A DNA stretch of 49,148 nt from Rhodospirillaceae bacterium (GTDB taxonomy: Bacteria > Pseudomonadota > Alphaproteobacteria > CACIAM-22H2). The notes under the pieces are model-generated. The model did no database searches. It was given only the letters and a program-made list of their open reading frames with translations, and had not been told where the DNA came from. Made by a program: the position numbers and the translations under genes. Below are positions 14,039 through 19,104 of the stretch, one piece after another; the first letter of the stretch is position 1, and each line of letters opens with the position of its first letter. The stretch lies in the NCBI GenBank assembly GCA_022843945.1, contig JALHMR010000038.1, positions 1 through 49,148 on the forward strand, given 5' to 3'.

Positions 14039-15100
14039 ATGGAGAAAGCCCCCGTGTCCCCCAGCCCTTCCCGTTCTCTCGCGGTCGCCGTCGTCGGCGC
14101 CACCGGTGCCGTCGGCGTCGAGCTCTTGCGCTGCCTGGACCAGCGCCGCTTCCCGCTCAAGCTCCTCAAGCTCTATGCCTCGGCCCGGTCGGCCGGCCGG
14201 CGCATGCCGTTCGCCGGTAGGGAACTCGCCGTCCAGGAACTGACGGAGAAGAGTTTCACGGGGATCGATCTGGCGCTGTTCTCCGCCGGCGGCGAGACCT
14301 CCAGGCGCTTCGCGCCCGCCGCGGTCGCGGCCGGCGCCGTGGTGGTCGACAACTCGTCGGCCTTCCGCATGGACGCGATCGTTCCGCTGGTTGTCCCCGA
14401 GATCAATCCGGAGGCGCTGAGGACGCATCGCGGCATCATCGCCAACCCGAACTGCTCGGCCATCATCGCCATCACGCCGCTCTGGGCGATCCACCGGGTC
14501 AACCGCATCCGGCGCATGATCATCTCCACCTACCAGGCGGCCTCGGGCGCCGGGGCCGCGGCGATGACGGAGCTGGAGGAAGCGACCCGCGCCCATCTCG
14601 AGGGTCGCGAATTCCAGCAGAAGGTCCTGCCGCACCCCTACGCCTTCAACCTGTTCAGCCACAATTCCAGCATCGACCCGGAAACCGGCTACAACGGCGA
14701 GGAGACCAAGGTGATGCAGGAGGCGCGCAAGATCTTCGGCGACCCGGAGCTGCGCATCTCCGCGACCTGCGTGCGCGTGCCGGTGTTCCGGGCCCATGCG
14801 GTGTCGGTGTCGTTCGAATGCGAACGCCCGATCACGCCGGCCGAGGTCCGCGAGCTGATCGCCCAGGCGCCGGGCGTGAAGCTGGTCGACGACCGGGCGC
14901 GCAACCTGTTCCCGATGCCGCGCGATGCCTCGGGCCAGGACGACATCCTAGTGGGCCGTATCCGTCCCGATTTGAGCGATCCCACCGGGCGCTCGATCTC
15001 GCTGTTCTCGGCGGGAGACCAGCTCCTGAAGGGGGCGGCGCTCAACGCCGTCCAGATCGCCGAGCAGCTGCTGGCGGCCGAGCTACGGGCGGCGAGTTAA
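14039..15100 (+). CDS. asd: Aspartate-semialdehyde dehydrogenase
   Basis: A 353-residue NADP-dependent enzyme converting aspartyl phosphate to aspartate semialdehyde, the branch point to Lys, Thr and Met (and diaminopimelate for cell wall). The sequence shows the nucleotide-binding loop VVGATGAVGVELL, FSAGGETS, VVDNSSAFR, the catalytic Cys in NPNCSAI, YQAASGAG, and the active-site region RVPVFRAHAVSVSFE. Start ATG 14039 is 32 bases after the attenuator terminator; GTG 14054 is an alternative. Expression is likely controlled by the Thr attenuator. A transposon is inserted ten bases after its stop codon. Confidence 0.97.
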   Translation: MEKAPVSPSPSRSLAVAVVGATGAVGVELLRCLDQRRFPLKLLKLYASARSAGRRMPFAGRELAVQELTEKSFTGIDLALFSAGGETSRRFAPAAVAAGAVVVDNSSAFRMDAIVPLVVPEINPEALRTHRGIIANPNCSAIIAITPLWAIHRVNRIRRMIISTYQAASGAGAAAMTELEEATRAHLEGREFQQKVLPHPYAFNLFSHNSSIDPETGYNGEETKVMQEARKIFGDPELRISATCVRVPVFRAHAVSVSFECERPITPAEVRELIAQAPGVKLVDDRARNLFPMPRDASGQDDILVGRIRPDLSDPTGRSISLFSAGDQLLKGAALNAVQIAEQLLAAELRAAS

Positions 15101-15110
15101 CGGTTACAGG

Positions 15111-15118
15111 GTTATATT
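15111..15118. repeat. Target-site duplication, left copy (IS1595-type element)
   Basis: GTTATATT at 15111-15118 (with one further shared C) is repeated at 17718-17725, immediately outside the two inverted repeats. An 8-bp duplication is usual for the IS1595 family. Confidence 0.75.
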
Positions 15119-15143
15119 CGCAATTATATCCTTGACACAACAC
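15119..15143. repeat. Left terminal inverted repeat of IS1595-type element
   Basis: This 25-base end matches the reverse complement of 17693-17717 at about 18 positions, including the block TTGACAC and ACAC. The TTGACA inside it may also serve as the -35 box of the transposase promoter, with TAGACT 16 bases downstream. Confidence 0.7.
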
Positions 15144-15190
15144 TACCGATAGGTAGACTAAAGCCAAGCTTATAGCAGGGATTGGTTGTC

Positions 15191-16156
15191 ATGGATACGT
15201 TTTCGGCCCCACATTTTACGAGCGACGAGGCTGCGAGAAAATTCCTATCCGGGCTACGGTGGCCGGGCGGCCCGGTTTGTCCGCACTGCGGTGTTGTGAA
15301 CCACGCGTACGCGATTGAGCGCGTCGGCAAGACAGGCAAGCCGGCTGCGTTCGGGGTCTACCGGTGCGCGGAGCGCGTGTGCCGCAAGGATTTCAGCGTC
15401 ACGACCGGAACGGTTATGGAGCGCTCGCATATCGCCCTGCACAAGTGGTTGCAGGGCTTCTACATGATGGCGTCGGCCAAGAAAGGCGTCTCGGCCCACC
15501 AGCTACACCGGACCCTGGGGATCACCTACAAGGCCGCGTGGTTCATGGCGCACAGGATCAGGGAAGCCATGCGGGCCGGTGGCCTTGTCGAGCCCATGGG
15601 CGGCAGCGGCAAAGTCGTGGAGGCCGACGAAACCTACTTCGGCAAGACCAGCAAGCGGCAGACCCACCGGACGAGCGGCGAGCGGTTCATTAACCGGGGC
15701 CACAAGGGACCGGCGAACAAGCGGGCCGTGGTGGCCCTAGTCGAGCGCGGTGGCACCGTGCGCTCCTTCCACGTCGCACGGGCGGACAAGAAAACGGTCA
15801 CGAAAATCGTTACCGATAACGTGTCGCGCGAAGCCCGCTTGCACACGGACGAAAGCCTGCTCTACGGCGCGGCCAAGGAACACGTTTCGTCGCACGAGAA
15901 AATCCGCCACAGCCGGAACGAATACGTGCGCGGCGACGTGACCACTAATTCCGTTGAAGGCTTCTTTTCGATTTTCAAAAGAGGCATGGTCGGCACGTAC
16001 CAGCATTGCAGCGAGAAGCACCTGCACCGCTATCTCAGCGAATTCGACTTTCGCTATAACAACCGTATCGCCCTAGGCGTGAACGATGAAATGCGCGCGA
16101 ACAACGCGCTTAAGGGCATCGAAGGCAAGCGCCTGACCTATCGACAGCCTGACTAG
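15191..16156 (+). CDS. IS1595-family (ISXO2-like) transposase
   Basis: A 321-residue transposase. The N-terminal zinc-ribbon (about 27-65) has CPHC and CAERVCRKDF, followed by an LHKWLQGFYMMASAKKGVSAHQLHRTLGITYKAAWFMAHRIREAM helix-turn-helix-like stretch. The ISXO2-like catalytic domain starts at VEADETYFG (first Asp), has LHTDESLLY (second Asp) and ends with VTTNSVEGFFSIFKRGMVGTY (Asn/Glu position), then HLHRYLSEFDFRYNNR. No frameshift or stop is present, so it appears intact. ATG 15191 follows a GCAGGGA ribosome site. Confidence 0.95.
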   Translation: MDTFSAPHFTSDEAARKFLSGLRWPGGPVCPHCGVVNHAYAIERVGKTGKPAAFGVYRCAERVCRKDFSVTTGTVMERSHIALHKWLQGFYMMASAKKGVSAHQLHRTLGITYKAAWFMAHRIREAMRAGGLVEPMGGSGKVVEADETYFGKTSKRQTHRTSGERFINRGHKGPANKRAVVALVERGGTVRSFHVARADKKTVTKIVTDNVSREARLHTDESLLYGAAKEHVSSHEKIRHSRNEYVRGDVTTNSVEGFFSIFKRGMVGTYQHCSEKHLHRYLSEFDFRYNNRIALGVNDEMRANNALKGIEGKRLTYRQPD

Positions 16157-16326
16157 TCCTGACTACGGGATTGAGGCGCGGCGCTTTCTCAGAGTTGCGC
16201 CCGTCGCCGGCATCCCTGAGCGCGCCAGCGCCATCCCAAATTTTGATCCGGCGACCTATGCCTATCCAGAACTACGTACCCTTAGGGTGCTTCTGGAATA
16301 CCTTTGGCGCGTCGATCTGCGCGCGC
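16157..16326. other. Non-coding stretch inside the transposon
   Basis: Between the transposase stop and the first passenger ORF. One plus-strand frame is open through about 16335 but has no ATG or ribosome site; it may be a remnant of an earlier passenger. Nothing is called here. Confidence 0.4.
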
Positions 16327-16485
16327 TCAAACGCCTTTAAGGCGGCGCGGCTTGCGTTGCTTCTTGGGGCGCTTTGGAGTCATGCTCTTGCGGGGGGACG
16401 GCGGCGTATTCATTGCGCCGCGCAATGCGGCGTTGAAGCGCTCTTGCGCTTCTTTGTCGCTGTATTGAGCCGGCTTATCGGGCAT
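16327..16485 (-). CDS. Small basic passenger protein, 52 residues
   Basis: Unrecognised function. It starts with MPDKPAQYSDKEAQERFNAA and ends in a strongly basic tail (PKRPKKQRKPRR), consistent with nucleic-acid binding. ATG 16485 has AGGA six bases upstream, and that site lies in the 10-base gap to the divergent gene at 16496. The short protein type with an N-terminal KP.x(Y/F)SD.EA motif and a basic tail seems familiar from alphaproteobacterial mobile DNA, but I cannot name a family. Confidence 0.6.
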   Translation of the reverse strand: MPDKPAQYSDKEAQERFNAALRGAMNTPPSPRKSMTPKRPKKQRKPRRLKGV

Positions 16486-16495
16486 GGGGTGTCCT

Positions 16496-17101
16496 ATGGC
16501 TGACGAACCAGCATACATCAAAAACCTTCGGGCGCTTACTCGCGGCGATCCTACGTACTTTCATCTAGACCAGATTGAACGAGAAATGTACGGGGCCAGT
16601 GACCGGGCCACCGCCGTAATGCTGGGGTCTATGGTCGAAACTACATTGCAGCGTCTATTGCAGACGGTTTTACGAGATGACTTGAATTCATCTGATCGGC
16701 GGCAGGTTTTTGAGTATGAGGGCGCTCTAGGCACGTTCTCTTCCAAAATCGTAATGGCCTACGCGCTGAAACTTATCGGGCCAATTTGCAGGAAAGACTT
16801 GGACCTTATTCGCCTGCTTAGAAACGAATTCGCACACTCCCGGAAATCGTTTGGTTTTGACGTGCCGGAAGTTAAGGCGGTGTGCGATGAATTGCGTGTC
16901 CCTGGTCTACCCGGCGCGTACATACCTCACGGCTATCTTGAGCGTGTCTCGGACGCTGAATTCGCAAAGGCCAAAGATATTACGGCGCCCAAAACCCGCT
17001 TCATTTCCGCTTGCCACAACGTAGCCTACAGGATGCTGGTCGCGCGATCAGACGACGCCACACGGGCGGAACTGGCATTTACTGATGACCCTCTGCCCTA
17101 A
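16496..17101 (+). CDS. MtlR/HEPN-like passenger protein
   Basis: A 201-residue helical protein. The segment GALGTFSSKIVMAYALKLIGPICRKDLDLIRLLRNEFAHS resembles the mannitol-repressor (MtlR, PF05068) family, whose fold is HEPN-like. Residues R109-N-E-F-A-H114 form the R-x4-H motif seen in HEPN ribonucleases. It may be an RNA-targeting or regulatory protein carried by the transposon; activity is inference. ATG 16496 has GGGG about nine bases upstream; an ATG at 16484 is in frame but less well placed. The start codons of this gene and of the divergent 52-residue ORF are only ten bases apart. Confidence 0.72.
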   Translation: MADEPAYIKNLRALTRGDPTYFHLDQIEREMYGASDRATAVMLGSMVETTLQRLLQTVLRDDLNSSDRRQVFEYEGALGTFSSKIVMAYALKLIGPICRKDLDLIRLLRNEFAHSRKSFGFDVPEVKAVCDELRVPGLPGAYIPHGYLERVSDAEFAKAKDITAPKTRFISACHNVAYRMLVARSDDATRAELAFTDDPLP

Positions 17102-17237
17102 GGCGCGCTTTCTCCATCGCCCGAAAGACGGCAGCGACCTCCCATTCCTTCGGGTCCTCCCGGTCATACAAAGCAGAGGCCTCGCAGCCCGCTTCGATCA
17201 TCTCCGGCGTGATCTCAATCTCAGGGGTGTCAGCCAT
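17079..17237 (-). CDS. Small acidic passenger protein, 52 residues
   Basis: The product contains EITPEMIEAGCEASALYD followed by VAAVFRAMEKARLRAEG, a two-helix pattern similar to short proteins common in alphaproteobacterial mobile DNA and phages; no function is known to me. Its ATG at 17237 shares the CATG palindrome with the start codon of the plus-strand ORF at 17236. No ribosome site is evident, and ATG 17201 is an alternative. Its 3' end overlaps the MtlR-like gene by 23 bases, tail to tail. Confidence 0.5.
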   Translation of the reverse strand: MADTPEIEITPEMIEAGCEASALYDREDPKEWEVAAVFRAMEKARLRAEGHQ

Positions 17238-17526
17238 GGCGAAACCAACGGATGAGGACTATTCGAAAATTGTGGATACCGTCTCGGAGCTTGCCGTTAC
17301 GCACGGCGTCGTTCGCCTGATCGCCACTCAGTTGCTAGCGCACGCGGCGCTCCGAGAGCCCAAACCTGGGGCATTCCTAGACGTGATATTTGAGGCGGTG
17401 AGCGGGCAGATAGACGAAATGCCCTTCCCCATCGGTAAGGACGGCGCGACCCTGCGCGGGCTAGTCGAAAAGCACCGCGACGTGCTCAAGATCATCATTG
17501 ATGATGCGCGGCGCGCGGCCGGCTGA
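17236..17526 (+). CDS. Passenger protein of unknown function, 96 residues
   Basis: Unrecognised. ATG 17236 has AGGGG about nine bases upstream. The product is predicted mostly helical and acidic at its start (MAKPTDEDYSKIVDTVSEL), with a hydrophobic middle (VVRLIATQLLAHAAL) but no convincing membrane segment. Its start codon overlaps that of the minus-strand ORF 17079-17237 in a CCATGG palindrome. It ends inside the next minus-strand frame. Confidence 0.5.
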   Translation: MAKPTDEDYSKIVDTVSELAVTHGVVRLIATQLLAHAALREPKPGAFLDVIFEAVSGQIDEMPFPIGKDGATLRGLVEKHRDVLKIIIDDARRAAG

Positions 17527-17683
17527 ATAGCGCGTCCTGTACGTACCGGATAGCTTCGAGCTTTTCGCGCGCGGCTTCGCACGCCTCCCGCCGTTCGGGG
17601 GGGAGGCTAATAAGCCAGATCAGGAAACGCCCTACGGGAGCCCCCAAAAACCGCACTGCGGCGGCCCTAACCGACCCCACCAC
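17495..17683 (-). CDS. Possible small membrane-associated passenger protein
   Basis: An open minus-strand frame next to the right inverted repeat. The product has a hydrophobic stretch (VRFLGAPVGRFLIWLISLP) followed by an amphipathic helix rich in Glu/Arg (PERREACEAAREKLEAIRYVQ). GTG at 17683 or 17680, or TTG at 17704 inside the terminal repeat, could start it; none has a clear ribosome site. It overlaps the previous ORF tail to tail by 32 bases. Confidence 0.35.
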   Translation of the reverse strand: MVGSVRAAAVRFLGAPVGRFLIWLISLPPERREACEAAREKLEAIRYVQDALFSRPRAAHHQ

Positions 17684-17692
17684 CCCTATGGC

Positions 17693-17717
17693 GTGTGGTG
17701 TCAACGGTATATTCGTC
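17693..17717. repeat. Right terminal inverted repeat of IS1595-type element
   Basis: The reverse complement shares TTGACAC, ACAC and an ATATA-C block with the left end. It is followed directly by the direct repeat GTTATATT(C). Confidence 0.7.
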
Positions 17718-17725
17718 GTTATATT
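17718..17725. repeat. Target-site duplication, right copy
   Basis: GTTATATT, same strand and sequence as 15111-15118, directly outside the right inverted repeat. Confidence 0.75.
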
Positions 17726-17777: not shown

Positions 17778-17823
17778 GTTCCGACAATTGTACGGGCCGG
17801 CGGCCCAGCGTAACGTGCCGGCC

Positions 17824-18162
17824 ATGGCGACCCATAAACATCGGGCCATGCATGACCTTGGCGGCGTCGAGCCGACCGCCTCGCAGGCCATCGACCGCAC
17901 CGAGCACGAGCTGACGCAGTTCGACAAGTCGGTCGACGCGCTGGTCGGCCTCATGGCTCACCCATCCCGGCGCATCATCCGCGTCGACGAGTTGCGCCGG
18001 GCCATCGAATCCCTGCAGCCCGTGCAGTACCACGGCCTCTCCTACTACGAGAAATGGCTGCAGGCCGCCCATGACCTTCTGCTGGAGAAGGACATCCTCG
18101 GCGAAGAAGAAGTGATGTTGCGCTGCGCGGCGATCCGCGAAGCCGAGGAAAAATCCTCGTGA
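17824..18162 (+). CDS. Nitrile hydratase/thiocyanate hydrolase beta subunit, N-terminal-half protein
   Basis: A 112-residue protein matching the N-terminal helical half of nitrile hydratase beta: HDLGGV near residue 10, then a helical body ending PVQYHGLSYYEKWLQAAHDLLLEKDILGEEEV, which matches the YYEKWL..l..lL.ekGilt.eEl pattern. In thiocyanate hydrolase this half is a separate subunit (beta). It could also be an NHase activator-type paralogue, but with the next two genes the set reconstitutes one complete enzyme. ATG 17824; the stop overlaps the next start (GTGA). Confidence 0.82.
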   Translation: MATHKHRAMHDLGGVEPTASQAIDRTEHELTQFDKSVDALVGLMAHPSRRIIRVDELRRAIESLQPVQYHGLSYYEKWLQAAHDLLLEKDILGEEEVMLRCAAIREAEEKSS

Positions 18163-18458
18163 CGGCCCGCTTCGCTCCCGGGGACCCCGTCCGCGTTCGC
18201 GAGGACTGGCCGGAGGCGAAAGCCAAGGTCCATATCCGCACGCCGCACTTCCTGCGCGGCGCCAGGGGCACGATCGAGACGGTGCTGGGTGCCTATCCCA
18301 ACCCCGAGGACCTGGCGTTCAGCCGGCCGGCCGCGGCCAAGCCGCTCTATCAGGTGCGCTTCGCCCAGCGCGCCCTGTTTCCCGAGGGCAAGGGTGCGGC
18401 GAGCGATACCCTGATCGCCGATCTTTACGAACATTGGTTGGAGCCGGTCCATGGCTGA
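18159..18458 (+). CDS. Nitrile hydratase/thiocyanate hydrolase beta subunit, C-terminal-half protein
   Basis: A 99-residue SH3-like barrel domain corresponding to the C-terminal half of NHase beta or the alpha subunit of thiocyanate hydrolase. It shows FAPGDPVRVR, HIRTPHFLRGARGTIETVLGAYPNPEDLA, PLYQVRF and DLYEHWLEP, all family landmarks; HIRTPHFLRG includes the Arg that contacts the modified Cys ligands in the active site. The start is GTG 18159, overlapping the previous stop. Its stop overlaps the start of the next gene by eight bases. Confidence 0.9.
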   Translation: MTARFAPGDPVRVREDWPEAKAKVHIRTPHFLRGARGTIETVLGAYPNPEDLAFSRPAAAKPLYQVRFAQRALFPEGKGAASDTLIADLYEHWLEPVHG

Positions 18459-19104
18459 GTATCACCACCACGACCACGTGCACCTCGATCACGCGCCGAT
18501 CAGCGACCACGGCCACGAGCCGCGGGCGGAGTACCGTGTTCTCGAGCGCGCCGTGCGCGAGCTGCTGATCGAAAAGGGCGTGGTCACCGCCGAGGACTGG
18601 CGCCGGCAGATCGAGCTCATGGATTCGCGCAACCCGTCGATGGGGGCGCGGGTCATCGCCCGCGCCTGGGTCGACCCTGCGTTCAAGCAACGGCTGCTGG
18701 CCGATGCCAAGAAGGCGGCTGACGAGCTCGGCATCGACACCGCCAACGCACCCCGCGTCATGGCGCTGGAGAACACGCCGACCCGCCATCACCTGGTCAC
18801 CTGCACCCTGTGCTCCTGCTACCCCAAGGCGATCCTCGGCATCCCGCCGGCCTGGTACAAGAGCGAGGCCTACCGGGCGCGCGCCGTTAAGGATCCGCGC
18901 GGCGTGCTTAAGGAATTCGGCACCGAGCTGCCTGACAACGTCGAAGTCCGGGTGATGGACTCCACCGCGGACCTGCGCTATCTCGTCGTGCCCTTACGTC
19001 CCGCCGGGACCGACGGCATGACCGAGGAGCAGCTTGCCGACCTGGTGACCCGCGACAGCATGATCGGCGTCACCGCCGCACGTAACCCCACTTCAGTTTC
19101 CTGA
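18451..19104 (+). CDS. Nitrile hydratase alpha / thiocyanate hydrolase gamma subunit, cobalt type
   Basis: A 217-residue catalytic subunit. The metal-binding claw C-T-L-C-S-C (in VTCTLCSCYP) has Thr at the second place, typical of Co(III) enzymes; the two inner Cys are expected to be oxidised. Downstream, LGIPPAWYKSEAYRARAVKDPRGVLKEFG, DNVEVRVMDSTADLRYLVVPLRPAGT and the final MIGV are standard. The N-terminus is unusually His-rich (ten His or Asp in HHHDHVHLDH and beyond), perhaps for metal loading. Position YPKA replaces the common YPWP, closer to non-classical members. Substrate could be a nitrile or thiocyanate. Confidence 0.92.
   Translation: MAEYHHHDHVHLDHAPISDHGHEPRAEYRVLERAVRELLIEKGVVTAEDWRRQIELMDSRNPSMGARVIARAWVDPAFKQRLLADAKKAADELGIDTANAPRVMALENTPTRHHLVTCTLCSCYPKAILGIPPAWYKSEAYRARAVKDPRGVLKEFGTELPDNVEVRVMDSTADLRYLVVPLRPAGTDGMTEEQLADLVTRDSMIGVTAARNPTSVS

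Follow-up and report, generated by a model that had tools for sequence, protein, structure and literature searches.

What do the passenger genes carried by a small insertion-sequence-like transposon have in common, and what might they do for the element that carries them? The question is raised by a 49,148-nucleotide contig of a Rhodospirillaceae bacterium (JALHMR010000038.1, assembly GCA_022843945.1; hereafter the window), in which a first-pass annotation had recognised an IS1595-type transposon with passenger genes and suggested that these could form a stabilising or defence-type module. On balance, we consider it probable that the element is a complete and probably mobile IS1595-family transposon in which a small gene, termed A, is inherited together with the transposase and adjoins a replaceable slot, here holding a putative HEPN RNase-type effector.

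The transposon and its transposase

The unit from 15119 to 17717 is a complete, genuine IS1595-family transposon, as defined by its transposase, its ends and its target-site duplication (Table 1). The transposase occupies a single reading frame with no internal stop and a stop at its end. It matches the DDE_Tnp_IS1595 domain (3e-33) and the N-terminal IS1595 zinc ribbon (8e-14), scores 197 bits against the NCBIfam profile transpos_IS1595 (cut-off 75) and retains the catalytic residues D146, D220 and E256 together with four zinc cysteines (C30, C33, C59 and C64). Its named plasmid matches, ISAcr1 and ISPepr2, are only ~31–32% identical to it.

The terminal inverted repeats, CGCAATTATATCCTTGACACAACA on the left and, reading inwards, GACGAATATACCGTTGACACCACA on the right, are imperfect, with 17 of 24 positions matching. 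A second repeat pair of equal length arises once by chance in the region and length alone is unconvincing; with the repeat consensus of the group included in the scoring, the true pair reaches 49.0, whereas the next best scores 36.4 and 60 shuffles yield at most 37.0. Additionally, the left end closely resembles that of a related element, L090 (CGCAATTATATCGTTGACACCACA). The repeats are enclosed by an 8-bp duplication, GTTATATT. The match extends to an adjoining ninth base, C, but relatives as a rule have 8 bp. Thus the IS1595 assignment, the imperfect repeats, the 2.6-kb extent and, at the lower of the two lengths proposed (8 or 9 bp), the duplication of the first-pass annotation are all upheld.

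The transposase may be expressed from a promoter whose −35 element lies within the left terminal repeat. A TTGAC motif is found in the left repeat of 76 of the 89 elements described below, and a −10-like hexamer follows at promoter spacing in 45 of these 76, compared with 15 of 76 at a control spacing.

A core gene beside an exchangeable slot

Genome searches followed by scans for terminal repeats and duplications produced 89 complete elements, the window element and 88 others. The 80 loci taken from the genome-contig search are the best transposase matches and not a random sample, and kinship among the elements inflates all simple p-values given here. Most elements possess an exact 8-bp duplication; a minority was admitted with an imperfect one or with repeats alone (L064, L079, L111, L138, L154 and a few more). 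The elements span 1875–4306 bp (median 2439), of which 900–3321 bp lie beyond the transposase, and share the terminal-repeat consensus GGC(A/G)ATTATATACTTGAC. None of the 89 is a bare insertion sequence; every one carries passengers. Matching repeats and passengers are present in the 88 relatives; of the window element itself, its own genome contains no second copy. The four other IS1595 transposases of that genome belong to different elements: four elements of the group, including that of the window, all carry different cargo (the others lie at ~15956–18661 of contig C19, ~1648–3695 of contig C11 and ~267685–270413 of contig C1), while the fifth transposase, on contig C5, is more distant.

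The order of genes in the window element is transposase (+), A (−), HEPN gene (+), B (−), C (+) and D (−). As annotated, the strands alternate, and neighbouring passenger genes overlap (HEPN gene and B by 23 bp, C and D by 32 bp; B and C share a CATG at 17235–17238). A, the HEPN gene and B are supported as real genes by their recurrence elsewhere; C and D, for which no relative was found in any fetched locus, are plausible as genes. Up to five open reading frames (ORFs) had been set apart from transposition. For the HEPN gene this description stands, whereas the behaviour of A is that of an element core gene, not of a passenger.

Nearly every element carries one of two small genes. A encodes ~50 residues (RRDxxLxRMLxTPPKPHK and a basic tail) and is present in 54 of 89 elements, on the strand opposite to the transposase in 52 of these; E, also ~50 residues (QxxRFxxAARExGxDESxxAFExxLKKI and a basic tail), is present in 31, always in the sense of the transposase. 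One or the other occurs in 85 elements, both in none and neither in four, a mutual exclusion with a hypergeometric probability of 6e-20 (which ignores common ancestry). Placed on the transposase tree, the A/E label requires 4 changes, compared with 24 when labels are shuffled. An independent search of 115 genomes recovered 24 A/E genes. For 20 of these, an IS1595 transposase lies no more than 1.5 kb away; of the remainder, three are remnant-like with cargo and one is doubtful. Mismatches in A/E fall 167, 132 and 230 times at the three codon positions, a coding-like pattern (p = 8e-7), and neither family has a Pfam match. Taken together, these sequence patterns show that A/E behaves as a core gene of the element, inherited with the transposase; if the pattern holds, A and E would be two undescribed protein families tied to transposition or cargo control.

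We also considered complete elements lacking a transposase, and rejected them: A/E matches with no related transposase nearby have no terminal-repeat pair and look like remnants. One such locus, L212 (1492–2472), has no transposase but retains A, a cargo gene of the NYN type and, of the two ends, a recognisable right repeat, as in a decayed element.

Comparison as DNA of pairs with related transposases revealed a different behaviour of the large gene. Where transposase DNA is 70–85% identical, two elements often have nothing else in common but the A/E core and, at times, the right end, and their cargo differs. L143 and L148 have in common a transposase block (85%) and a 108-bp E block (85%) and nothing else; the cargo of one is a BstA gene with, by eye, a DUF3800-like gene, and that of the other a PD-Lambda-2_C/Beta-type protein. 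Between L144 and L150, similarity covers the transposase (80%), 102 bp of A (89%) and the right end; between L161 and L163 it covers the transposase (78%) and a 75-bp stretch of A (80%), and the cargo differs in both pairs. L116 and L128 are alike across the left 1.6 kb (70%) and in 77 bp of A (79%). The region between A and the right end thus behaves as a replaceable slot, and the large gene within it as exchangeable, usually nuclease-like cargo.

To describe the cargo, the longest ORF of each element was taken as its main ORF, blind to motif, after a codon-usage score had failed to single out real cargo ORFs; a few may be spurious, and in L087, L111 and L116 each strand contains long ORFs. 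The motif R[NHD]xxxH was present in the main ORF of 37 of 52 A-type elements, compared with 14 of 136 comparable flanking ORFs (p = 6e-16) and 6 of 31 E-type elements, and cargo with the motif lies on the plus strand in 36 of 37 cases. A-type cargo is mostly 10–20% identical to the window HEPN protein, and Pfam detects almost none of it; overall, it changes among HEPN, NYN, HNH, GmrSD-like and other proteins. In E-type elements the slot is occupied by genes for DUF3800, GmrSD-type, methylase, BstA and Beta proteins, to which inspection by eye adds PIN and NYN proteins. Named plasmids of Roseomonas and Methylobacterium carry a related transposase with a PIN- or VapC-annotated gene and a small hypothetical gene after it. 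Strong matches to PADLOC are few (BstA, PD-Lambda-2_C, NsnA and methylases) and are the only ones informative for defence. We discarded weak PADLOC tallies as a general argument for defence, as flanking genes match just as often. A RusA-like reading of the cargo of L097, L102, L114 and L119 is likewise unproven, with an E-value of 0.068 for L102 and nothing for L097.

The suggestion of a stabilising or defence-type module is accordingly borne out as a pattern only (HEPN-motif enrichment together with PIN/VapC, NYN, HNH, BstA and methylase slots), and the function of such a module is putative. More broadly, we tentatively propose, as a possibility falling somewhat short of an even chance, that this widespread and mainly alphaproteobacterial clade of IS1595 transposons is specialised in transporting nuclease toxins or defence functions that consist of a single gene, its core being formed by the transposase and a small, undescribed accessory protein (A or E) next to the slot in which nuclease-like cargo is exchanged.

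The HEPN protein and its possible partners

The Rx4-6H motif, usually with N, D or H after the R, is the catalytic mark of HEPN proteins (PMC3710099), and the window protein possesses it intact as RNEFAH. An AlphaFold model built from 38 aligned sequences is wholly helical, with a predicted local distance difference test (pLDDT) score of 81 and a predicted template modelling (pTM) score of 0.78. Foldseek matched it to MtlR (1e-4), and VIA gave Z scores of 13.3–13.9 to YggD/MtlR, 10.3 to a HEPN-domain protein, 9.7–9.8 to Gifsy-1 HepS, 8.1–8.8 to HEPN toxins and 8.2 to Csm6. Helical bundles can reach such scores by chance, but the top matches are consistently of the HEPN family and the motif is intact. 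As modelled, the protein is of the HEPN helical and MtlR/YggD fold, in agreement with the MtlR/HEPN-like protein of the first-pass annotation. Its sequence profile found no meaningful match in the PDB, and it scores 14.6 bits against NCBIfam MltR (cut-off 149). Among element-borne proteins, its closest relatives come from L113 (36%) and L140 (33%), two elements with transposases of other branches.

We suggest that this protein is a metal-independent RNase-type effector and that it may act as an abortive-infection or addiction toxin favouring cells that keep the element. Several observations weigh against the reading of the locus as a mobile transposon with an HEPN effector in its slot. Relatives match each flank of the insertion (the asd and nitrile-hydratase regions), but no genome had both flanks adjacent, as in the expected empty junction ...GGGTTATATTCTTAAG... 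with a single GTTATATT. The proteins of the window element have no match in PADLOC-DB, and PADLOC matches overall are not enriched in the cargo, weak ones being equally frequent in flanking genes. HEPN relatives at 25–41% identity also exist outside such elements, with no transposase nearby. The motif survives in only ~60% of the MtlR family, some of whose members work non-catalytically (PMC3710099). Finally, a model of the divergent A-type cargo of L110 is helical and has HEPN matches, but these do not rise above unrelated bundles; the HEPN reading of such divergent cargo rests on the motif and the helical prediction, because the structural match is unclear.

The HEPN protein may have a partner within the element. 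B is recognised in 22 of 89 elements, none of them E-type, always on the minus strand and always across the 3' end of the cargo. HEPN-motif cargo accompanies it in 20 of these 22, compared with 19 of 36 other non-E elements (p = 0.003), and L207, a remnant with no related transposase nearby, keeps A, the HEPN gene and B. Because B goes with HEPN cargo, it appears a better candidate than A for the HEPN partner, although this is, with the role of A, the least certain step of the proposed mechanism. The stronger form of this idea, in which B is the antitoxin or modulator of the HEPN protein and A simply a core gene, we regard as somewhat unlikely: B was recognised in only about half of the A-type elements with HEPN cargo (though it is short and may be missed), and, lying at the right end, it may be a further element gene.

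Alternatively, A and the cargo could constitute a toxin-antitoxin pair, with the HEPN protein as toxin and the small basic A protein as antitoxin. Their starts abut, overlapping in a palindromic CATG in the window and, by computation, with the same −1 offset in 11 other elements; PIN/VapC and HEPN cargo are typical toxins, and Tn3-family transposons carry toxin-antitoxin pairs, one of them HEPN/MNT (PMC7157771). A dedicated antitoxin would, however, be expected to follow its toxin. A stays while the cargo switches among HEPN, NYN, HNH, GmrSD-like and other genes, tracks the transposase lineage and has no match to any Pfam family. Because A/E is inherited with the transposase while the large gene is replaced, we consider such a pairing unlikely, and A may instead be an accessory or regulatory protein of the element.

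A further alternative is that the HEPN protein regulates element or host mRNAs in the non-catalytic manner of MtlR. Its best structural matches are indeed MtlR and YggD, and some members of the MtlR family are believed to bind RNA but not to cleave it (PMC3710099). Yet both this protein and the majority of the A-type cargo, however divergent in other respects, retain a complete Rx4H motif, and this makes the account improbable. That the cargo represents host genes picked up at random and not selected for any role in the element would fit its diversity and the homologues outside elements but is very hard to reconcile with the HEPN-motif enrichment, the fixed slot and strand and the absence of passenger-free elements.

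Related systems, coordinates and further observations

IS1595 elements with passengers have already been described (in a statement of PMC11891212 that cites Siguier et al. 2009), and the ISNha5 and ISNwi1 groups of the family are listed in PMC8101967. Likened to the window element through the literature only, these transporter groups share with it a transposase with a zinc ribbon and DDE_Tnp_IS1595 domain, an 8-bp duplication and passengers beyond the transposase, whereas no description of the A/E genes, of the fixed junction between A and cargo or of a HEPN bias was found for them. Our literature search returned no paper linking IS1595 with HEPN cargo, and these three features appear to be unreported in the literature searched. 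Elements of the ISNwi1 group measure 1.75–4.75 kb.

Tn3-family transposons with embedded toxin-antitoxin genes (PMC7157771) similarly have a fixed site for toxin-type genes, PIN and HEPN among them, and in both groups several toxin families were acquired independently. The Tn3 elements, however, have recognisable antitoxins beside their res sites; the window element has no resolvase and no known antitoxin, and its small protein is conserved across different cargo. The HEPN protein resembles MtlR/YggD and DUF4145 HEPN proteins in fold and Rx4H motif but, unlike MtlR/YggD, is encoded on a transposon rather than in a mannitol operon and lies below Pfam cut-offs in similarity. HepS of the Gifsy-1 prophage (PDB 9oij, 9oik) is likewise a mobile-element HEPN protein with a structural match, at only ~15% identity.

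While passenger-carrying IS1595 elements were known, what their passengers have in common was not. Should the pattern hold, small insertion-sequence-like elements would be shuttles for HEPN, PIN and other nuclease genes, and the fixed slot a place to seek new single-gene defence or toxin genes.

Table 1. Features of the IS1595-family element, in window coordinates.
Feature	Position	Strand	Remarks
Left target-site duplication, GTTATATT	15111–15118	.	exact match to 17718–17725
Whole transposon, IS1595 family	15119–17717	+	2599 bp; transposase, terminal repeats and duplication
Left terminal inverted repeat	15119–15143	+	holds TTGACA (−35-like) of the likely transposase promoter
IS1595 transposase, 321 residues, zinc ribbon and DDE domain, intact	15191–16156	+	
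A, small basic protein, 52 residues (...NTPPSPRK...KKQRK), signature gene of A-type elements	16327–16485	−	family recurrence
CATG in which the divergent starts of A and the HEPN gene overlap	16483–16486	.	sequence
Cargo, HEPN-superfamily protein, MtlR-like fold (predicted), motif RNEFAH	16484–17101	+	start 16484 or 16496
B, small protein, 52 residues (EIEITPEMIEAG...VFRAM), overlaps 3' end of HEPN gene	17079–17237	−	family recurrence
ORF C, 96 residues, no relatives found	17236–17526	+	
ORF D, 69 residues from TTG, no relatives found	17495–17704	−	true start may be internal
Right terminal inverted repeat	17693–17717	−	
Right target-site duplication, GTTATATT	17718–17725	.	exact match to 15111–15118

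The left neighbour of the element is an asd-like gene (14039–15100). On the right flank (17788–19104), a nitrile-hydratase beta N-terminal-like gene comes first (PF21006, 1e-14), and the two ORFs after it resemble the remainder of a nitrile hydratase or thiocyanate hydrolase cluster.

At L054 (contig C85 of genome G101), two A-type elements lie near each other in opposite orientation, with different cargo and target duplications and 80% identity across the first 1.1 kb. The elements L106, L114, L149 and L120 come from contigs labelled Acidobacteriaceae, Micavibrio and cyanobacterium, through either a spread outside the typical Alphaproteobacteria or binning errors. Lastly, in two unrelated genomes a more distant IS1595 transposase has as its neighbour a gene for a small membrane protein, the two proteins resembling each other in a GGD(N/S)Y motif (L206, 4078–4692 and 4773–5693, on contig C5 of the window's own genome; L207, 8819–9499 and 7788–8693); this gene is perhaps a recurring passenger of another IS1595 subgroup.

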